Assembly: GCA_946887155.1 (NCBI GenBank)
Contig: CAMPKM010000024.1
Coordinates: forward strand, 1-15,191
Direction: 5' to 3'
DNA: 15,191 nucleotides
Origin: an uncultured Gemmatimonadota bacterium
Lineage (GTDB): Bacteria > Gemmatimonadota > Gemmatimonadetes > Gemmatimonadales > Gemmatimonadaceae
The notes below the pieces were generated by a model. That model was not told the DNA's origin. It saw nothing but the letters and a program-made list of their open reading frames with translations, and searched no databases. The position numbers and the translations under genes are program-made. This document shows positions 906 through 15,004 of this stretch, piece after piece (position 1 is the first letter of the stretch; each line of letters starts with the position of its first letter).

Positions 906-1490
906 CTAATGGACTGCTCCTAACGCCCACGCCACCGCCGCCCTCACCGTAGCATCGCGGTCGCCCAGGGCGCGCACCAGCGGCCGTGTGACCGTGGAAT
1001 CCCCGGTGAACCCGATGCCGATCGCGGCCAGCCTTCGCACCTGGGCCTCGTCGTCGCTCAGGGCCGACAGCAAGGCCGACCGTGCCGGCGCCAATTCACT
1101 CCGGCCCAGCATTCGCGCGGCGATGCGCGACACGCAGGCGTCGCCCGATCGCATGGCGGTCACGAGCTCCGGCACGAGTTCCGGCGCCTGGACTCGGCGG
1201 TGGATCACCATCGAGACGTTCCAGGCTACGCTGTCGCGATCAGGCGCCCTGTTCGATGACCAGGAATTGAACGACGAGAGCGCAATCTCGCACTGGATGG
1301 CGTTGGCGCTCCGCATACTCTCCAGGTACGCACGCAGATCGGCGGCCGTCGCGGCCGGATCGTGCTGTGACATCGCCGCCGAGGCCATGACGACCCTCGA
1401 TGGGACGATGCCTGATTCCCGCGCCCGCATGGCGATGGGGATGACGACCATCGCCGCCGCGAACGTCAGGACCGTTCGCGCGGCGCTCAT
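906..1490 (-). CDS. Small exported or membrane-anchored HEAT-repeat protein
   Basis: This is a 194-residue protein. The N-terminus has a hydrophobic stretch at about 6-22 after a short basic start, fitting a signal peptide or membrane anchor. The C-terminal part holds three short HEAT (PBS-lyase-type) repeats, with hallmarks near residues 120 (VSRIAARMLG), 151 (VRRLAAIGIG) and 182 (VRAAVAWALG), a 31-residue period. The region 45-115 is not recognised. HEAT arrays bind proteins, so an adaptor role is likely; no enzymatic motif is visible. Its ATG overlaps the TGA of the M56-HEAT gene (1487-1490), which implies translational coupling, and the repeats resemble those at the C-terminus of that protein. 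I infer that it works with the M56 protein outside the cytoplasmic membrane. It ends with TAG just before the repeat array. Confidence 0.85.
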   Translation of the reverse strand: MSAARTVLTFAAAMVVIPIAMRARESGIVPSRVVMASAAMSQHDPAATAADLRAYLESMRSANAIQCEIALSSFNSWSSNRAPDRDSVAWNVSMVIHRRVQAPELVPELVTAMRSGDACVSRIAARMLGRSELAPARSALLSALSDDEAQVRRLAAIGIGFTGDSTVTRPLVRALGDRDATVRAAVAWALGAVH

Positions 1491-3745
1491 CGCTTGTTCC
1501 GGTTGCCGAGCGCCTTGGCCGCACTTTCCCGGACGTCGGCGTTGGAATCCTTCAGCGCCGTCCGGAGGGCGGCGGTCACGGACGGATCGTCGAAATTGTC
1601 GAGCGATTCGACCACCGCCTGCCGCACCTCGACGTTGGTATCGCCGACGTGGTTGATGAGCGCGGTCAGCGCCGCCGGATCCTCGATGTGGCCTAACGCG
1701 TGAGCAACCTCGTGCCGCACCTGGGCGTCGCGGTCCTCCATCGCCCGGATGAGCTCCGGTGGAGCCGTCCGCAAACGGTCGATGTTGGTGAAGGCCGACG
1801 CGGCGGCACGGCGCACTTCGACATCGGCGTCGGACAGCGCCGCCGTGAAAGTGGCAACGGCACGGCGATCGGAGAGACTGCCCAGCGACTGGATGACCGC
1901 GCGCCGGATTTCCGGTTCCGGGTCACGAGCAATGGCAATCAACGCCGGCACAGCCTCGCTGTCGTCCATCGAGCCTAACGCCTCGGCCGCCGCCAGCCGC
2001 ACTTCGGCGTTGGCGTCGCGCAGGGCGCGCGTGACCGCCGGTACCGCGCGGCTGCCTTCCACGTTGTCGATCGCCTCGATCACCGCCCGCCGGACCCCGG
2101 CATCGTCGTCGCGATCGAGCACTCGGATGAGCGCATCGGTGGCAGCCGGGTCCTCGATGCTGGCGAGCGCCTCGGCCGCTTCCATGCGGACCGACGCCTC
2201 GGCGTCACGCTCCAGCGCCTGCGTGAGTACCGCCGTCGCGCGGGCGTCGTCGATGCTGCCCAGCGCGGACGCTGAGTTCTTGCGGACCTCGACATCCCGG
2301 TCACGCGATAGCGCCTCGGAGAGGGCTGGAATCGCCAGTGCGTCGGCGATCTCGCCCAGCGACCAGGCGGCGCTCCGCCTGACGACGGGACTTTCGTCCG
2401 TGCGGAGGACGTCCATCAGCGCGCGAACGGCGACGCTGTCCCGGGCATTCCCGAGCGCCTCGACAGCGGCATGTCGCACCGATGCCACCGGATCGCGAAG
2501 GGCCGCGGCAAGCGCACCAACAACGGACTCGCGCTCTCCGCTTTGAAGCGGCGCGCGCGGCGCGGAAGACGATTCTTCTTCGTGCTCCACGGTGCTCTCG
2601 TGTTCGACCTTGTCGTCCGATGCAACTGTGGACGTGCTCTGATCCAGCGAGTAGTTGGTGATTTCCTTCGGTGAAGTGGGCGCCGCGTCCGACGTGGGCG
2701 CCGCGTCCATGGATGCGACGCCGAGGCTGAGGCCGCCGACGAGGATCACGGTTCCTACGGCCCCTCGTGCGCTGGGCATTGTGCCTCCAGATTCGAGAAT
2801 CGCGAGCATGCGCCCCTCGAATTCCGAGCGGCGCGCCAGCGGCATGAGCGGTGCGGGATGCCAGGCCCGACGGGACTGGCGAACGATGTCGAGCAGATGG
2901 GCGGCGTAATCCGACGGCTTTGCGCCCGCGTTCACGACCCGATCGTCCGTGGCGCGCTCCGCCTCGGCACGGAGTCGAGCGGCGGCCAGCCACACGAGTG
3001 GGTTGAACCAGTAGACGGTGCGCGCGACTTCGGAGAGCAGGTGCGGCACGATGTCCATGCGCCTGATGTGACTCAGTTCATGCAGCAGCACGACCTCGAT
3101 CCGCTCCGCCGACCAGGTGGATGACTCGTCAGGCAGCAGCACGACGGGTCGGCGCCAGCCGGCGGCACACGGCATGGCAACCTTCGAGCTCACGATCACT
3201 CGCGGGACGTCGTGGAGCCCGAGTCGGGCCGCGCATGCTTCAGCCAGTTCCGCGGTTTCGCGCGACGATTCGACGCCACTCCGCCGCAGGCGGGCCAGTG
3301 CGATGAAACCCGCGATGAGCCGGAGGGCAAAGATGCCCACGCCGAGTAACCAGATGGATACCGCCCAACCCACCGCGCTCAGGCCTTCGTACCATGGCGG
3401 CTCGTTGGTCGGCGTCACTGGCGGCGTAGCGGAGAGATCCGACGACGACAGCGCCGACTGATCGATGCTCGAAGCGGAGGCGTCAGCAATCGAGGGATCT
3501 TTGTCCGAAGGTGGCGTGAGGCGTTGAGCGGAGATTCCCGAGACGCGTTTGGGCACGTTGACCGCCACGGTGACGGGGGCAATGATCGCGAGCAGTGGCA
3601 TCGCCACGACGGCAGCAAGCGCGCTGGCCCACAATACATGGCGCACGGCAGCGGCCTGCGGTCGCAGCAGCCGGGCGACGATGAACGCGATGGACAGCAG
3701 GAGGGCGCCGCGCCATGCTGCATCGGGAAGCCAGGTGAATTCCAT
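1487..3745 (-). CDS. M56 (BlaR1/MecR1-type) membrane metallopeptidase with C-terminal HEAT-repeat domain
   Basis: The protein has 752 residues. Membrane segments lie at about 11-28, 37-63 and 124-152, and another at about 329-346. Between the last two sits the M56 zinc-protease domain with HELSH at 222-226, followed by WFNPLVWLAAARLRAEAER (246-264), which supplies the probable third zinc ligand (a Glu in EAERATDD). In BlaR1 this domain is cytoplasmic and leads to cleavage of the BlaI repressor, and a penicillin-binding sensor follows the last helix. Here that sensor is absent. After an acidic, Ser-rich linker (about 347-404) come eleven HEAT repeats, with VRxxAxxAL-type motifs starting at 423, 455, 487, 519, 551, 582, 613, 644, 676, 707 and 738. 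By BlaR1 topology these should be extracytoplasmic. The gene starts directly after the repressor's TAA, with a strong AGGAGGG Shine-Dalgarno at 3753-3759, 7 bases from the ATG. The input signal is unknown. Confidence 0.93.
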   Translation of the reverse strand: MEFTWLPDAAWRGALLLSIAFIVARLLRPQAAAVRHVLWASALAAVVAMPLLAIIAPVTVAVNVPKRVSGISAQRLTPPSDKDPSIADASASSIDQSALSSSDLSATPPVTPTNEPPWYEGLSAVGWAVSIWLLGVGIFALRLIAGFIALARLRRSGVESSRETAELAEACAARLGLHDVPRVIVSSKVAMPCAAGWRRPVVLLPDESSTWSAERIEVVLLHELSHIRRMDIVPHLLSEVARTVYWFNPLVWLAAARLRAEAERATDDRVVNAGAKPSDYAAHLLDIVRQSRRAWHPAPLMPLARRSEFEGRMLAILESGGTMPSARGAVGTVILVGGLSLGVASMDAAPTSDAAPTSPKEITNYSLDQSTSTVASDDKVEHESTVEHEEESSSAPRAPLQSGERESVVGALAAALRDPVASVRHAAVEALGNARDSVAVRALMDVLRTDESPVVRRSAAWSLGEIADALAIPALSEALSRDRDVEVRKNSASALGSIDDARATAVLTQALERDAEASVRMEAAEALASIEDPAATDALIRVLDRDDDAGVRRAVIEAIDNVEGSRAVPAVTRALRDANAEVRLAAAEALGSMDDSEAVPALIAIARDPEPEIRRAVIQSLGSLSDRRAVATFTAALSDADVEVRRAAASAFTNIDRLRTAPPELIRAMEDRDAQVRHEVAHALGHIEDPAALTALINHVGDTNVEVRQAVVESLDNFDDPSVTAALRTALKDSNADVRESAAKALGNRNKR

Positions 3746-4150
3746 TTATCGTCCCTCCTGTCGTGCCGCGCGGATGCGCTTGGCGAGCGCATCGAGTCGA
3801 TCGGGGTCGAGGTTAGCGTCGGACAGGTTGGCCAGCGCCACCACGGCCCGGTCGACCGATCCGTCGAAGAACGTGTCCACCAACTGCTTCATCGCCGTCC
3901 GCCGCGCCCGCTCAGCGGGGACGGCGGGCCGGTAGACATAGCGGGGTCCGTCCGTTTCCTGGGTGAGGAAACCCTTGTCGCGGAGCTTTCCCAGCATTGC
4001 CCTTACGGCGGAATACGTCGGCGGGTTTGGGAGGGCCTCGAGGACATCAGCGACGGTAGCCGCACCCAGCCGGTAGACGATTTCGATGATCTGCCGCTCC
4101 CGGCGGCCGACATCCAACGGATTGGCGGACGATTTGCGCTGTGGTGTCAT
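3746..4150 (-). CDS. BlaI/MecI-family winged-helix repressor
   Basis: This is a 134-residue protein of normal family length. A winged-helix DNA-binding domain spans about 14-75: ERQIIEIVYRLG, then ATVADVLEAL, then the recognition helix TYSAVRAMLGKLRDKGFL. The C-terminal part contains the family motif QLVDTFFDGS (89-98) and a dimerisation region. In staphylococcal BlaI/MecI the protease-linked cut is Asn-Phe in the C-terminal domain. By eye, Asn108-Leu109 aligns there, but this is only a suggestion. The gene is first in an operon with the M56-HEAT protease and is followed without a gap by its ATG, the classic repressor/sensor pairing. Two palindromes directly upstream are the likely operator, so it should repress its own operon. 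A GGAG 10 bases before the ATG can serve as ribosome binding site and lies in the centre of the proximal palindrome. Regulated targets beyond this operon cannot be told. Confidence 0.93.
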   Translation of the reverse strand: MTPQRKSSANPLDVGRRERQIIEIVYRLGAATVADVLEALPNPPTYSAVRAMLGKLRDKGFLTQETDGPRYVYRPAVPAERARRTAMKQLVDTFFDGSVDRAVVALANLSDANLDPDRLDALAKRIRAARQEGR

Positions 4151-4155
4151 TTTAG

Positions 4156-4192
4156 TGCTACTCCAGTAGCATCAGGTGCTACTAGAGTAGCA
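4156..4192. promoter_or_regulatory. Tandem operator palindromes for the BlaI-type repressor
   Basis: Two 16-bp palindromes share perfect TGCTACT and AGTAGCA arms around a 2-base centre: TGCTACTCCAGTAGCA at 4156-4171 and TGCTACTAGAGTAGCA at 4177-4192. Their centres are 21 bp apart, two helical turns, so two dimers would sit on the same face of the DNA. The sites lie between the predicted -35 box and the start codon. The proximal one covers the Shine-Dalgarno and the distal one the predicted -10. Dyads in front of BlaI-family genes are normally the repressor's own operators; binding here is inferred. Confidence 0.82.
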
Positions 4193-4213
4193 TGATTTGG
4201 TTTGTGGAGTCAA
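4184..4213 (-). promoter_or_regulatory. Candidate promoter of the repressor/M56 operon
   Basis: On the minus strand TTGACT (4213-4208) is followed after 18 bases by TACTCT (4189-4184). The -35 is good and the -10 weak (three of six matches). The -10 lies inside the distal operator palindrome, which would let a bound repressor block RNA polymerase. Confidence 0.45.
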
Positions 4214-4519
4214 GTAGGGGCGATAAGAACGGGTAAGGCAGGAACGCGGGCTGCACTGGTGGCGCAGATGAACACCGATACCCTGTGAAAAACAGAACCC
4301 GCGTCCAGGACTTCTCGCAGAAGTAAAGAGATCCCGGGCGCGGGTTCTGCTTTTCACTGGTGTATCCGTGTTCTTCCGTGTCCTCAGCGCAGTCCGTGTT
4401 CTGCCTTACCGTCCCTATCTCCCCGCTACCAGCGAAAATCGCTTGTAGCCGCCTGACGACACTCATAACTTGCCCGCGAAATCGCTCACCAAGCGCAAGC
4501 CCTTGGCAGGACGTGACGT
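4214..4519. other. Non-coding gap between divergent repressor and mgtE genes
   Basis: I see no credible gene here; open frames across it are short and lack motifs. The central part is the palindromic element at 4270-4373. Further right, TTGTAG (4443-4448) and CATAAC (4464-4469) are 15 bases apart. They are at best a poor candidate promoter for mgtE. The rest, including variants of CCGTGTTCT, looks like ordinary intergenic sequence. Confidence 0.6.
4270..4373. repeat. 104-nt palindromic intergenic element (element A)
   Basis: The inner arms are 4285-4303 (GTGAAAAACAGAACCCGCG) and 4339-4357, which pair at 18 of 19 positions. With a few mismatches and one gap the pairing extends to 4270 and 4373. 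The 35-base loop (4304-4338) begins TCCAGG, ends CCCGGG and contains a small nested hairpin, CTTCT-CGC-AGAAG. There is no T-run beside it, so it is not an ordinary terminator for either neighbour, and the neighbours diverge. The architecture and loop resemble the element at 9781-9851, suggesting a dispersed palindromic family (REP/MITE-like). Confidence 0.75.
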
Positions 4520-5905
4520 ATGACGCCAGCCCAGCATAAGCCCGACCGCCCGATCGCGGCGTTGCTCGTCCCCGACATACTCGACCTGCTGGAAGAGGCG
4601 CCGGGCAGCCTGGCCGCGGAAACGGAAGAATTGCACGCGGCTGATCTCGCCGACGTCGTCGAGGCGTTACCGCCCGATCGCGTGGGTGACGTCCTGCGCG
4701 CGTTGTCGCCCAATCGGGCCGCACAGGTCATCGAGTACCTCGATGTAGAGCTGCGCGCCGAGTTCCTGGAGCACGCTACGGCGGAACAGGCTGCCGAGAT
4801 CATTTCGGAGATGACGCCTGACGACCGGGCGGACATCCTGGAGGATCTCGAGGAGGCAAAGGCAGACGAGATCCTCCACGACCTGACGGAGGAGGCGAGG
4901 GAAGAAACCCAAAAGCTGCTCCAGTACGAGCCGGACACGGCCGGCGGCCTGATGACGACCGAGTTTGCGTCGGTGGATCAGGGGGCAAGTATCGAGACGG
5001 CCTTGTCGGACGTCCGCGCCGCGGCACGGTCGGGGCGGCGCGAATCGATGCATGCGATCTATGTGGTCGATGCCGACGGCAAGCTGGTCGGCGTCATGTC
5101 GCTGCGCGAGCTGGTGGCGGCGCCCGAGGGCGCCACCGTGGCCAACGTCATGCATCGCGAACTGGTGGCCGTGCCGGTTTCGGCCGACCGCGAGGAAGTT
5201 GCGCGGATTACCTCAGAATACGACCTCGTCGTGGTGCCGGTGGTCGACGGATTCAACAGGATCGTTGGGGTCATCACTGTCGACGACGTCATTGACGCTA
5301 TTGTCGAGGAACAGACGGAGGATGTGCAGCGCCTGGGTGCCGTGCAACCGCTGGAAGATCCCTACTTCGTGGCCAGCTTCTGGGATGTGCTCAAGCGGCG
5401 CGTCGGCTGGCTGGTAGTCCTGTTCCTGGGCGGAATCTTCACCAGTACGGCGATGGATTCGCACCAGGCGACACTCAATGCCGTGACTTACCTCGCCACG
5501 TTTCTACCGCTCGTCATCAGTTCCGGTGGAAACTCCGGGTCGCAGTCTGCCACGCTCATCATTCGGGCCCTCGCTGTGGGGGACGTCGAGATAAGCGACG
5601 CGCTGCGGGTGTTCCTGCGCGAGCTGGGGCAGGGGTTGGCGTTAGGCGCCTGCCTGGGGATCATCGGGTTCGCTCTCGTCATGGTCGGTACGTCTCACGG
5701 TCCGCGCTTTGGCGCCGTGGTGGCAACTTCGATCATCCTCGTCGTGATCGCGGGCACCGTCGTCGGGTCGATGTTGCCGTTGCTGCTCCACCGCGTCGGG
5801 TTCGATCCTGCTGTCGCTTCGTCGCCGTTCGTGGCGTCCATCGTCGACGTCACGGGGATTGTCGTGTATTTCACCGTCGCGCGCCTGCTACTCGGACTTG
5901 CGTGA
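4520..5905 (+). CDS. mgtE: Magnesium transporter MgtE
   Basis: The protein has 461 residues, the normal MgtE length. An N-terminal helical superhelix domain (about 35-140) holds acidic repeats such as MTPDDRADILEDL. A CBS pair follows at about 143-262, with LVGVMSLREL and IVGVITVDDVIDAI as the two core motifs. A connecting helix then leads to five membrane segments (about 295-461). The pore signature PLVISSGGNSGSQS is at 330-343. FDPAVASSPFVASIVDVTG at 428-446 contains the family's conserved Asp (Asp443), which lies in the Mg2+ pore of Thermus MgtE. MgtE is a Mg2+-gated channel of the inner membrane; the N and CBS domains sense cytosolic Mg2+. The ATG at 4520 has only a weak GGCAGGA upstream. 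The next gene overlaps by 4 bases. No Mg2+ riboswitch was recognised in the leader. Confidence 0.96.
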   Translation: MTPAQHKPDRPIAALLVPDILDLLEEAPGSLAAETEELHAADLADVVEALPPDRVGDVLRALSPNRAAQVIEYLDVELRAEFLEHATAEQAAEIISEMTPDDRADILEDLEEAKADEILHDLTEEAREETQKLLQYEPDTAGGLMTTEFASVDQGASIETALSDVRAAARSGRRESMHAIYVVDADGKLVGVMSLRELVAAPEGATVANVMHRELVAVPVSADREEVARITSEYDLVVVPVVDGFNRIVGVITVDDVIDAIVEEQTEDVQRLGAVQPLEDPYFVASFWDVLKRRVGWLVVLFLGGIFTSTAMDSHQATLNAVTYLATFLPLVISSGGNSGSQSATLIIRALAVGDVEISDALRVFLRELGQGLALGACLGIIGFALVMVGTSHGPRFGAVVATSIILVVIAGTVVGSMLPLLLHRVGFDPAVASSPFVASIVDVTGIVVYFTVARLLLGLA

Positions 5906-10873: not shown

Positions 10874-10902
10874 TTGACATCACGCTATCGAAGTGATATC
10901 AT
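10874..10902 (+). promoter_or_regulatory. Near-consensus sigma70-type promoter of the SPFH operon
   Basis: TTGACA (10874-10879) and TATCAT (10897-10902) are separated by exactly 17 bases. The -35 is a perfect consensus match, and the -10 matches four of six, including the key second and sixth positions. It lies 34 bases before the chosen ATG at 10937. It is the best promoter by eye in the window, and its -10 lies inside a palindrome. Confidence 0.8.
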
Positions 10903-10909
10903 TTTGATA
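10886..10909. promoter_or_regulatory. 24-bp operator-like palindrome over the SPFH promoter
   Basis: The 24 bases are symmetric at 20 positions, centred on TGATATCA (10894-10901). Half-site TATCG/TATCA occurs at 10886 and 10897, and its complement TGATA at 10894 and 10905. Each pair is exactly 11 bp apart, one helical turn. The palindrome covers the end of the spacer and the whole -10, so a bound protein would block transcription. The Arc-like protein two genes on is the obvious candidate, because Arc-type regulators read 11-bp-spaced subsites. This pairing is inferred. Confidence 0.65.
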
Positions 10910-10936
10910 CCCACCTCTATTACGGAGCCATCGAGC

Positions 10937-11806
10937 ATGCTGCGAGAGAAGGTACACAAGCCGTTCAACGGACTCCTGATGCTGCTGCTGGGCCTGGGCG
11001 CCCTCCTCGGGGCATTGGCTGGCGTGATTACCTCCGCCAACGCCGAGAACGGCCTGGGGGTCGGCCTGTGGGCCATCGCGATGGTCGCCATCAGTCTGCT
11101 CATGGCCGGCCTCTTCACGGTCAACCCTAACGAAGCCCGGGTCCTGACGCTCTTCGGACGGTACGTCGGCACTGTTCGCGAAGCTGGACTCTGGTACGCC
11201 AACCCCTTCTACGCGAAGAAGCGAATCTCGCTGCGCGTGCGGAACTTCGAGACGACAAAGCTGAAGGTGAACGACAACCACTCGAACCCGATCGAGATCG
11301 GCGCGGTCGTGGTCTGGAGGGTCGTCGATTCGGCGGAAGCGCTGTTCGAGGTCGACGACTACCAGCACTTCATGCAGACGCAGAGCGAGGCGGCCGTTCG
11401 CGCGCTGGCGCAGTCGTATCCGTACGATGCGCACCTCGTGGAGGAGATTGCGTTGAGCACACACCCCGCGGAAGTCGCAAAGGGCCTCCAGGCGGCGATT
11501 CAGGATCGGCTCGACAAGGCGGGCGTCAACGTGATCGAGGCGCGTATCAGCCACCTCGCCTACGCTCCCGAGATTGCCTCGGCGATGCTGCGGCGCCAGC
11601 AGGCGAGTGCGATCATCGCGGCGCGAAAGAAGATCGTCGAGGGCGCCGTTGGCATGGTAGAGAATGCGCTCGAGATGATTTCCGAGAAGTCGATCGTTCA
11701 GCTCGACGACGAGCGGAAGGCGGCAATGGTGAGCAACCTGCTGGTCGTGCTCTGCTCCGATCGAGACGCGCAGCCCATCGTGAATACGGGGACGATCTAC
11801 CAGTGA
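10937..11806 (+). CDS. SPFH/band-7 domain membrane protein
   Basis: This protein has 289 residues from the ATG at 10937, which has GGAG 9 bases upstream. A longer reading from 10874 is rejected because it would start on the -35 box. Two hydrophobic helices (about 11-32 and 43-62) anchor the N-terminus. The SPFH domain follows: [20 protein letters not shown] (60-79) begins it, and [20 protein letters not shown] and VVVWRVVD fit the band-7 core. [36 protein letters not shown] (202-237) is the coiled-coil-forming end. SPFH proteins build membrane-associated oligomers that scaffold microdomains or protease complexes. The specific job here is unknown, and no NfeD-type partner is adjacent. It leads a three-gene unit with an Arc-like regulator and a two-helix membrane protein. 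Confidence 0.92.
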
Positions 11807-12106: not shown

Positions 12107-12475
12107 ATGATCTTCATCCCGATGGTGCACCAGCAGCGCACGCCGGCACCGACGCGGTACAGCCGCGAGCTCGGGCAACGGTTCGACGAGACGGTGCGCG
12201 AGTTCAAGCGGCAGCACCCCGACCTCACCGACGCTGACGTGCGGACCGCGCTGGCGACCTCGTTGAAGCAGGCTGGTTCCCCCGAAGACGAGGCGCGCCA
12301 GCGAAGGTTGGCGTTCGTAACGCTGCTCGCAATCGGCCTGGCGTTCATCGGCGTCGCGCTGTCGGGAGGGAACCCGGGCCAGGACAGCGAAGGCATGGCG
12401 CTGATGATCATGGGTATCGTCGTCGCGGCCGCCGGCGTGGCGGTGGCGGTGATTCGCCTCTCGCGCCGGGACTAG
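12107..12475 (+). CDS. Small two-helix membrane protein of unknown function
   Basis: This 122-residue protein has no recognised family. Residues 1-65 are soluble, charged and probably helical (RYSRELGQRFDETVREFKRQ, then DADVRTALATSLKQ). Two hydrophobic helices (about 68-86 and 97-117) are separated by a short acidic, Gly-rich turn (GGNPGQDSEG), and a basic end follows. This predicts an integral membrane hairpin with both ends in the cytoplasm by the positive-inside rule. GAGG stands upstream of the ATG at 12107, only 15 bases after the Arc-like gene, so the two are co-transcribed. Association with an SPFH protein suggests a membrane partner of that scaffold. Its TAG overlaps that of the convergent mntR gene in CTAG. 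Confidence 0.8.
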   Translation: MIFIPMVHQQRTPAPTRYSRELGQRFDETVREFKRQHPDLTDADVRTALATSLKQAGSPEDEARQRRLAFVTLLAIGLAFIGVALSGGNPGQDSEGMALMIMGIVVAAAGVAVAVIRLSRRD

Positions 12476-13191
12476 GACGCGGGCCGGTCCTGGGGTCGCG
12501 ACACCATTACCCGGGCGGCCAGCGCCGGCCCCACCTGCTGTGAGACGCTGCCCACCTGAATCGTGAGCGGACCGTCGAAGGGCGCTCGGCCGGTCAGGAT
12601 CACCTCGGCACCGGGCCGGAGGCCTAACGAATCCAGGTAACGCAGCATCCGCGGGTCCTCGTCGCCGACGCGGACCACGCGCGTGCGGGAGCCGACTTCG
12701 GCATCGGCCAGCGACTGGTGCACCGTCTCATCGATCTTCCCTTCGCGCGTTGGGATCGGCGCACCGTGCGGATCGGTGAGCGGCTCGCCGATCGCTTCGG
12801 CCATCCGGTCGATGAGCGTGTCGCTGGCGGCGTGCTCCAGCCGTTCCGCCTCTTCGTGGACTCCGTCCCACCCGTAGCCTAACGCGCGGACGAGGTACGC
12901 CTCGATCACCCGGTGCCGCCGCAGGGTCTTGAGCGCAGCCTTGCGCCCGGCGGCGGTCAGACGGACGCCCTTGTAGCGCTCGTACTCTACCAGGCCCTGG
13001 TCGGCCAATCGCTGCACCATGCCGCTTACCGACGCCGGCGCGATGGACAGTCGCTGGGCGATATCGGTCGTCGCGGCGGAACGGCCGTCGCGCTCGAATG
13101 CGTAGATCGTCTTGAGGTAATCCTCGACCGGTGCCGTCAGCAATTCGATCCGCGGCGTGGGACGAGGTGCCTTTTTTTTCTTCGCGGTCAC
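12472..13191 (-). CDS. mntR: MntR/DtxR-family manganese-responsive repressor with FeoA-like C-domain
   Basis: This is a 239-residue protein. A winged helix is at about 20-82, with DIAQRLSIAPASVSGMVQRLADQGLVEYERYKGVRLT typical of DtxR proteins. The dimer/metal domain (about 88-160) contains RRHRVIEAYL and GVHEEAERLEHAASD. Counted against DtxR, the ligands are Asp24 (DtxR Met10), His93, Glu97, His112, Glu116 (DtxR Cys102), Glu119 and His120. Asp and Glu at the Met10 and Cys102 positions are the manganese-type signature; Glu11 of Bacillus MntR corresponds to Lys27. An SH3-like FeoA domain ends the protein (about 166-230). The start is taken as the GTG at 13191-13189, overlapping the TGA of the stress-protein gene as GTGA; an upstream reading would run through that gene. 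Linkage to mntH supports Mn2+-dependent repression. Confidence 0.92.
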   Translation of the reverse strand: MTAKKKKAPRPTPRIELLTAPVEDYLKTIYAFERDGRSAATTDIAQRLSIAPASVSGMVQRLADQGLVEYERYKGVRLTAAGRKAALKTLRRHRVIEAYLVRALGYGWDGVHEEAERLEHAASDTLIDRMAEAIGEPLTDPHGAPIPTREGKIDETVHQSLADAEVGSRTRVVRVGDEDPRMLRYLDSLGLRPGAEVILTGRAPFDGPLTIQVGSVSQQVGPALAARVMVSRPQDRPAS

Positions 13192-13625
13192 GCGGTCGGT
13201 TTGGCTGGAGCTCGAACGAGCAGGACCGGTACCATCGACTTGTGCCGCACCGAGGTGGCGACACTGCCATGGATCATGTCGCCGAGCAGCTTGTGGCCGT
13301 GCGTCGCCATGGCGATCAGGTCGCATTTCTCGCGTTCGGCGGCGGACGTGATTTCCGACGACGGGTCACCGGTCGCCAGCAACGCCTCGGCGCGCAGGCC
13401 GGTGGTGACGAAGTCGGCGGCGACCCGCTCCAGGTATTCCCGGTCGTCACGCATTTCCTCGGATTCACGAAGCTCGAGGTGCTTGATGTTGCGAGCAGCC
13501 CAACCATCCGCCACATGGATCAGCAGCAGGGACGCCGCACAGTGCTTCGCGAGCTGCTTGATGTGACTCACGATGAACTGATCGGTCGGAGAATTCTCGA
13601 GGCATACCAGGATCCGCTTGTACAT
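13188..13625 (-). CDS. Universal stress protein (UspA family)
   Basis: This 145-residue, single-domain USP begins YKRILVCLENS, the first strand with its Cys/Leu-Glu variant of the usual Val-Asp. It has LLLIHVAD in the next strand and GDPSSEITSAAEREKCDLIAMATHGHKLLGDMIHGSVATSVRHKSMVPVLLVR at the end, here given as residues 87-138 in outline only. The nucleotide loop is Gly110-x4-Gly115-x4-Gly120-Ser121, a variant of the usual G-2x-G-9x-G(S/T), so ATP binding is uncertain. Of two ATGs, 13625 is chosen because it overlaps mntH's TGA by one base; 13637 would add four residues. USPs are cytosolic stress-response proteins. Its place inside the mntH-mntR operon suggests a role in oxidative or metal stress, but no mechanism is visible. 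Confidence 0.9.
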   Translation of the reverse strand: MYKRILVCLENSPTDQFIVSHIKQLAKHCAASLLLIHVADGWAARNIKHLELRESEEMRDDREYLERVAADFVTTGLRAEALLATGDPSSEITSAAEREKCDLIAMATHGHKLLGDMIHGSVATSVRHKSMVPVLLVRAPAKPTA

Positions 13626-15004
13626 CAGGAGATCCATCCGGTGAACGTCTGGTAGAGCAGCCAGAGGTTGAGCGTCGCGATGATACTCGCCACGAGGTAC
13701 GCGAGCAGCTTCAACCATCCGGGGTTTACGAATTCGCCCATCTTTCGGCGGTCGGACGTGAACATCACCAGCGGGAAAACGGCAAACGAGAGCTGCATGC
13801 TGAGGATCACCTGGCTCAACACCAGCAGCCTGGCGGTTCCTGATTCGCCGTACAAGATGGCCGTGGTTGCGGCGGGCACAATGGCAATTCCGCGAGTAAT
13901 CAGCCGTCGCAGCCATGGACGGATGCGCAGGTTGAGGAAGCCCTCCATCACGATCTGGCCGGCCAGGGTTCCGGTGAGTGTCGAGCTCTGCCCCGACGCC
14001 AGCAAGGCGAGCGCAAACACGACGCTGGCGGCGCCGACGCCAAGGAGCGGTGACAGCAGGTGATAGGCATCCTGAATTTCGGCGACCTGCGTGTTCCCTG
14101 ATTTGTAGAACGTGGCCGCGGCGACGATCAGGATCGAGGCGTTGATGAACAACGCGAATGAGAGCGCAATGGTCGAATCAATGAATGCATAGCGAACGGC
14201 CTCGCGTTTTCCGGCCGAGGTCTCCTCGTACTTGCGCGTCTGGACGATGGAGGAATGCAGGTACAGGTTGTGCGGCATGACGGTGGCGCCGAGGATGCCC
14301 ATCGCGATGTAGAGCATGGCCGGGTTGCGGATGATCTCCGCGCTCGGCACGAAACCCTTCAGCACGCCACTGATCTCGGGGCGGGAAATGATGATCTCGA
14401 ACAGGAAACAGAGACCCACCACCGCCACGAGCGAGATGATGAGCGCCTCCAGCCAGCGGAATCCCTTGTTTTGCAGGTAGAGGACGAGGAGCACGTCGAG
14501 GGCGGTGAGCGTCACGCCCCAGGCGAGCGGGATACCAAAGAGCAGGTTCAGGGCGATCGCGGTGCCGATGACTTCAGCGAGGTCGCAGGCGGCGATGGCG
14601 ATTTCGCAGAGCACCCAGAGGCCGAACGCGACTGGCGGTGAGTAGTGGTCGCGGCAGGCCTGTGCGAGGTCGCGTCCGGTGACGATGCCAAGCTTGGACG
14701 ACAATCCCTGGAGGAGAACCGCCATCAGGTTGGACAGCAGGATGACGGCGAGGAGCGTGTACCCGAACTGCGACCCGCCAGCGAGGTCGGTGGCCCAGTT
14801 GCCGGGGTCCATGTAGCCGACGGCGACGAGGTAGCCGGGTCCGGCGAAGGCGAGGATCTTCCGGAACCAGTGTCCTTGGCCGACGGGTATTGTCCGATAA
14901 ACCTCTGCCAAGCTGGGAGTTACGCGCGTTCTTCTCCAGCCGGACTCAGCCGTGGTGTTTCGATCGTCGGGTGATGGCGGTGGGGTCAGTTCTGGAGCGG
15001 TCAT
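13625..15004 (-). CDS. mntH: Nramp-family Mn2+/Fe2+ transporter MntH
   Basis: This 459-residue protein has about eleven membrane helices. [19 protein letters not shown] (55-73) in helix 1 carries the metal-binding DPGN (66-69). [14 protein letters not shown] (239-252) in helix 6 carries MPHN (243-246). These Asp, Asn and Met residues coordinate the metal in Nramp structures, so proton-coupled Mn2+/Fe2+ import at the inner membrane is expected. The first 45 residues are polar, proline-rich and longer than usual. ATG at 15004 is accepted although no Shine-Dalgarno precedes it. It heads an operon with a universal stress protein and mntR, joined by 1- and 4-base overlaps. A DtxR/MntR-type palindrome at 15095-15113 suggests repression when manganese is sufficient. 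Confidence 0.95.

Follow-up and report, generated by a model that had tools for sequence, protein, structure and literature searches.

What does a BlaI/M56 repressor–protease pair sense when its receptor carries HEAT repeats in place of a beta-lactam sensor? This question is raised by an operon at positions 906–4192 of a 15,191-nucleotide stretch of DNA from an uncultured Gemmatimonadota bacterium (contig CAMPKM010000024.1), hereafter the window. Gemmatimonadota are abundant soil bacteria in which, to our knowledge, an envelope-stress pathway like this one has not been described, no dedicated literature search having been made. Our analysis indicated that the operon probably encodes an autoregulated BlaI/M56 switch, in which an extracytoplasmic HEAT solenoid replaces the beta-lactam sensor and is linked to another HEAT protein that is exported. 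The protease and repressor families are already known. The features of the operon are as follows.

3746–4150, minus strand: blaI-type repressor gene (Penicillinase_R), 134 amino acids (aa); PF03965, E 3.8e-25
1487–3745, minus strand: M56-HEAT receptor-protease, 752 aa; PF05569, E 5.9e-35; HEAT_2, E 1e-72; structure models
2696–3745, minus strand: M56 part of the receptor (residues 1–350) with four membrane helices, HELSH at 222–226 and invariant E263
1490–2542, minus strand: array of eleven HEAT repeats (residues 402–752)
906–1490, minus strand: small HEAT partner, 194 aa, with a hydrophobic N-terminus (7–19) and conserved C67 and C119; HEAT_2, E 1.7e-15
4156–4171, no strand: operator palindrome 1, TGCTACTNNAGTAGCA type, 5 bp upstream of the blaI start codon
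4177–4192, no strand: operator palindrome 2, 5 bp beyond palindrome 1 and 26 bp upstream of the blaI start codon

On the minus strand, the gene order is blaI, M56-HEAT and small HEAT gene; the blaI stop is immediately followed by the M56 start codon, and the third gene shares 4 nt with the M56 stop. The repressor matched PF03965 with 88.9 bits against a Pfam cut-off of 22.6, in line with the BlaI-type repressor named in an initial annotation of this DNA. Its nearest solved relative by sequence, and the sole PDB hit, was 2k4b (E 4.5e-5), aligned over residues 13–76 only, the DNA-binding part. The CopY/TcrY copper repressor, the top NCBIfam match of this protein, was rejected (43.1 bits against a cut-off of 121.95).

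In the receptor, PF05569 spanned residues 18–313 (121.3 bits against a Pfam cut-off of 31), and four hydrophobic segments were found at 9–27, 44–62, 133–151 and 328–346. The gluzincin motif HEXXH...E was present, with HELSH at 222–226, and H222, E223, H226 and E263 were invariant in alignments of 38 and 37 rows. The membrane and protease part showed a BlaR1-like fold, the structural match spanning residues 2–311 only. AlphaFold2 modelled eleven helix pairs at residues 402–751 (pLDDT 93–98 for each ten-residue block of 411–750), that is, tandem pairs of about 31 residues stacked as a solenoid. Their lengths were 35, 32, 32, 32, 32, 31, 31, 36, 27, 31 and 32 residues. All Pfam families reported for the 752-aa protein were M56 or of HEAT/ARM type, with no beta-lactamase or penicillin-binding protein (PBP) domain. 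The C-terminal penicillin-binding (class-D-like) domain was likewise not found in the receptor, which scored 91.3 bits against the NCBIfam model blaR1_generic (cut-off 400) and 36.9 bits against MecR1 (cut-off 1200). Since the sensor domain that defines BlaR1 and MecR1 was tested and absent, the receptor would work like BlaR1 but is not a BlaR1.

These results agreed with much of the initial annotation, which had proposed structure prediction and had described an M56 protease with HELSH and four membrane helices, followed by eleven regular repeats of 31–32 residues where the drug sensor would be. The protease, the eleven helix pairs and their position all stood, but only 8 of the 11 repeats are 31 or 32 residues long. 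The span of 906–4192 was also correct, and it contains the third gene and both palindromes. That annotation recognized the BlaI, M56 and HEAT parts, but it overlooked the conserved HEAT partner, the tandem operators and the wide spread of the family with its candidate targets.

The M56-HEAT system is a widespread family. The closest named relative was the Gemmatimonadaceae metagenome-assembled genome L001, with 65% identity and the three genes in the same order. When the M56 part served as the protein query, 7,997 candidates were scored, 607 of them at E ≤ 0.001, and precomputed Pfam assignments gave HEAT domains in 107 of the best 120 of these 607. With the distant member G239 as query, 1,758 proteins were found, and HEAT domains were present in 118 of the 120 listed; source names among these matches included Gemmatimonadota and Thermoanaerobaculia. 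Within the GTDB family of G001, 12 of 179 genomes had a match at E ≤ 1e-60. For comparison of gene neighbourhoods, 33 M56-HEAT loci were assembled from the window and 32 genomes, chosen as the best-scoring loci. Outside this set stood G180 (M56, no HEAT match), the second M56 of G011, G325 (no HEAT) and G337 (contig cut inside M56). A search for M56-HEAT fusions beside BlaI genes had been suggested by the initial annotation, and blaI adjoined the M56-HEAT gene in 31 of the 33 loci; the two loci without it were G166, with a masked stretch, and G348, at a contig end.

M56 proteins without HEAT repeats also stood beside blaI, as in three of the four other M56 matches of G001 and one of G011. Locus L059 (G011) contained two adjoining BlaI/M56 pairs, one M56 with HEAT repeats and the other without. 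Two further proteins had M56 fused to other domains (P0099 and P0109; PF13349 and an S41 protease with PDZ), which suggests widespread exchange of the outer parts of M56 receptors.

A separate HEAT gene followed the M56-HEAT gene in 32 of the 33 loci. The motif LLxAARGxxPxxCxLA, as well as a further Cys, was common to the partner proteins, and both aligned Cys were kept in 32/32 loci and in 25/25 aligned close relatives. The N-terminus was hydrophobic and signal-like in 32/32 partners, this stretch being a hydropathy call with start codons chosen to favour it. We infer that the partner is an exported protein with a disulfide. An extra operator lay between the M56 and partner genes in 4 of the 20 loci scanned, and therefore the partner is tied to the repressor.

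The operators themselves were then compared with chance and with control patterns. Two TGCTACTNNAGTAGCA palindromes with 0 mismatches were present in the window; at the looser setting of ≤3 mismatches, 0.12 matches were expected and two or more occurred in 2 of 200 shuffles. A scan of 4050–4530 found no sigma-70 promoter, and its single terminator-like match (4176–4193) was operator 2 itself. The tandem pair also preceded blaI in L001, where one palindrome carried one mismatch, and in G337. Across the 179 genomes, the tandem TGCTACNNNNGTAGCA pattern occurred at 4 places in 3 genomes, compared with 0 for the reversed control: before the operon and a DUF5916 gene in G001, before the operon in G337 and before the HEAT-less BlaI/M56 pair in G325. 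In four genomes, the total for TGCTACNNNNGTAGCA was 11 sites and that for the control 7, so that single sites of this type say little and the argument depends on the tandem arrangement. Sixteen genomes were searched with the TGYTGANNNNTCARCA pattern, which had been derived from seven of them; it matched 26 sites, compared with 6 for the reversed control. The cassette had a site in 14 of the 16 genomes, G022 and G024 being the exceptions. The pattern derived from the cassette of G081 itself gave 5 sites against 0. Other cassettes had different palindromes of like shape, as if repressor and operator had co-diverged between lineages. The palindromes before blaI in L050–L083 shared the outline TGYNNN....NNNRCA, with inner bases that varied by lineage.

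Candidate targets came from the genomes of relatives, in which distal operator matches were found at 13 places; the surrounding genes were called with a rough codon-bias heuristic. Two sites lay before a DUF5916 gene (G001 and G247), one before an orphan HEAT partner (G081) and four at a MacB/FtsX permease (G242, G144, G184 and G081). Another gene was directly downstream of two more, a 152-aa open reading frame without a Pfam match in G109 and a weak Peptidase_M1, below the cut-off, in G011. A tandem pair of differing sequence precedes the DUF5916 gene of G247, and a tandem pair precedes the unlinked partner copy of G081; thus the three distal tandem pairs near M56-HEAT systems mark two DUF5916 genes and one partner. 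A figure of 4,000 genes per genome was assumed in the chance statistic for two of three tandem distal sites. The nine distal target proteins scanned contained no beta-lactamase or PBP domain.

The link to DUF5916 also appeared in the gene neighbourhoods. A same-strand DUF5916 gene lay in the fetched neighbourhood of 9 of the 33 loci (G001, G031, G022, G245, G239, G020, G024, G081 and G155), directly after the partner in six of these by rough start calls, and another lay ahead of the contig-cut operon in G337. By chance, 0.96 such loci were expected at the mean density of DUF5916 genes and 2.0 at the highest, giving P(≥9) of 8e-7 and 2e-4, respectively; the density came from 8 of the 33 genomes (6–14 matches each), and the expectation assumes independence. 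M56 identity among the nine loci was 24–57% except for one pair at 95%, so about eight lineages are represented. No DUF5916 gene was present in the window. Before the in-operon DUF5916 genes, no operator within one mismatch was found, which fits co-transcription. In locus L081 (G325), the HEAT-less BlaI/M56 pair, tandem TGCTACNNNNGTAGCA operators and a DUF5916 gene occurred within the same 14-kb stretch. We regard the DUF5916 genes and the orphan partner copy as candidate targets, and MacB/FtsX permeases less surely so. DUF5916/CBM9 proteins are presumably outer-membrane barrels. The input is therefore more likely to be the state of the envelope or of outer-membrane proteins than a drug.

The array was positioned C-terminal to the fourth hydrophobic segment (transmembrane helix 4, TM4), where a hydrophobic helix was modelled at 326–344. 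An automatic test for four helices and HEXXH was passed by 27 of the 33 loci, and the TM4 segment was present in all 27. The other six failed for several reasons: HECAH in G184 was outside the search pattern, G052, G239 and G247 had either two or more helices under threshold or a wrongly set start, a masked stretch affected G166, and the contig end cut G348. According to an excerpt of PMC9834060, BlaR1 has an N-out/C-out topology; because the array follows TM4, it should, by analogy, lie outside the membrane. The array was free of Cys in 23 of the 27 loci. Per 100 residues over these loci, Lys and Arg (KR) numbered 7.5 in the outside loop TM2–TM3 and 19.5 and 14.2 in the inside loops; the window's own linker was acidic (4 KR and 14 Asp and Glu, DE).

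Taken together, these observations point to the following mechanism. BlaI dimers would bind the two adjacent palindromes before blaI and close the operon. The receptor would be an inner-membrane protein, its zinc-protease site on the cytoplasmic side, as in BlaR1, and its modelled HEAT array outside. An envelope protein or peptide may dock on the array, probably together or in competition with the exported partner. By comparison with BlaR1, the change in docking would be relayed through TM4 and the TM2–TM3 loop to the protease, and BlaI would be cut; an excerpt of PMC9834060 gives Asn101–Phe102 as the cleavage site of Staphylococcus aureus BlaI. Loss of BlaI would free the operon, yielding more receptor and partner, and would also raise the DUF5916/CBM9 proteins and perhaps the MacB/FtsX permeases.

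Several points weigh against this reading. The structural match to BlaR1 ends at residue 311, ahead of TM4; the array is therefore placed on the outer side by a single additional hydrophobic helix (326–344) and by inference. Charge over the 27 loci was indecisive, with 10.0 KR and 10.1 DE per 100 in the 60 residues past TM4, and one or two Cys occurred past TM4 in 4 of these loci. The initial annotation had placed the array outside the membrane, and its position after TM4 and the topology of BlaR1 agreed with this, but the fold match and the charge did not settle it. The choice of loci by best score biases the HEAT share upward, G184 has no partner, and the signal-like stretch of the partners depends on the start codons chosen. 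Among the 13 distal sites, 4 were inside a gene or had no promoter relation (G024, G138, G340 and G325). The four MacB/FtsX hits are weak evidence because the family is so common (9 to over 142 genes per genome), and in G081 some 380 bp separate the site from the probable start.

The near-neutral linker charge, together with residues 312–350 lying outside the fold match, would also fit a cytoplasmic array, in which the fourth hydrophobic helix does not span the membrane and a cytosolic partner is bound; bacterial HEAT proteins are often cytosolic. This arrangement is very improbable, considering the modelled helix, the TM4 segment in every locus that passed the test, the mostly Cys-free arrays and the signal-like N-terminus of the neighbouring HEAT partner in 32/32. 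The array may also be a scaffold rather than a sensor, with M56 controlled via the membrane or the TM2–TM3 loop, and an envelope complex held together by the HEAT proteins. HEAT solenoids are general scaffolds, and HEAT-less M56 proteins beside blaI in G001 and G011 are consistent with this. However, the array occupies the place of the BlaR1 sensor, and its length is nearly constant among close relatives: the whole receptor measured 731–779 aa in the full-length rows P0001–P0064, except P0019 with 436 aa. We therefore consider a scaffold role unlikely.

Finally, the system could still sense cell-wall drugs or damage, with beta-lactams detected by another protein bound to the array (a PBP or one that binds peptidoglycan), and so form a resistance switch like BlaR1. 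The shared BlaI and M56 parts are in favour of this, as is the BlaR1 homologue of Mycobacterium tuberculosis, an analogous system lacking the sensor domain for which an excerpt of PMC9834060 suggests a separate detector protein. However, neither the M56-HEAT protein nor the scanned distal target proteins contained a beta-lactamase or PBP domain, and a wall-drug input has a low probability in our view. A switch reading the envelope through the HEAT array is preferred to these three alternatives. As a tentative and rather doubtful extension, it may serve dedicated envelope surveillance, in which the HEAT-armed protease reads a disulfide-bonded exported partner that tracks DUF5916 outer-membrane proteins, destroys BlaI and adjusts outer-membrane protein production, across diverged Gemmatimonadota and probably also Acidobacteriota. 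If true, the pathway would do for proteins what BlaR1 does for beta-lactams, and would offer an alternative to DegS/RseP-type signalling of outer-membrane stress.

BlaR1/BlaI and MecR1/MecI (MEROPS M56) differ from the present system in the sensor and in the candidate targets. Here, eleven HEAT repeats and an extra HEAT gene are found instead of a penicillin-binding sensor, and the candidate targets are DUF5916 genes of relatives rather than beta-lactamase or PBP2a. The M. tuberculosis BlaI/BlaR pair, as described in an excerpt of PMC9834060, is likewise an M56/BlaI pair without a beta-lactam sensor; there the sensor is absent, whereas here a HEAT array stands in its stead with a linked HEAT partner. 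Among HEAT-like solenoid binders, alphaReps are artificial and soluble, whereas this array is fused to a membrane protease. The JGI label 'HEAT repeat protein/beta-lactamase regulating signal transducer with metallopeptidase domain' denotes the same architecture in many listed relatives; it is automatic and carries no function. In the open-licence literature of PubMed Central, no paper was found on BlaR1 or M56 with HEAT repeats, nor on DUF5916. The known role of BlaR1/BlaI is that of a switch for drug resistance. If our reading is correct, the repressor–protease pair is a modular chassis, and sensing a drug is one of its uses; in the present version the sensor would be a solenoid that docks proteins, accompanied by an exported partner of its own and by a candidate regulon of the outer membrane. 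The question of the input is then testable, as partner, operators and targets are named and recur in diverged genomes.

Other genes of the window were also assigned. A divergent MgtE-type magnesium transporter gene (4520–5905, plus strand; TIGR00400) lies directly upstream of the operon; an MgtE-type gene is also beside the operon of L001, with a DUF5916 gene in between. A SPFH-type protein with weak HflK/HflC matches is encoded at 10874–11806 (plus strand), and an MntR/DtxR-like regulator is near an Nramp MntH manganese transporter (12472–13326 and 13625–15004, both minus strand).
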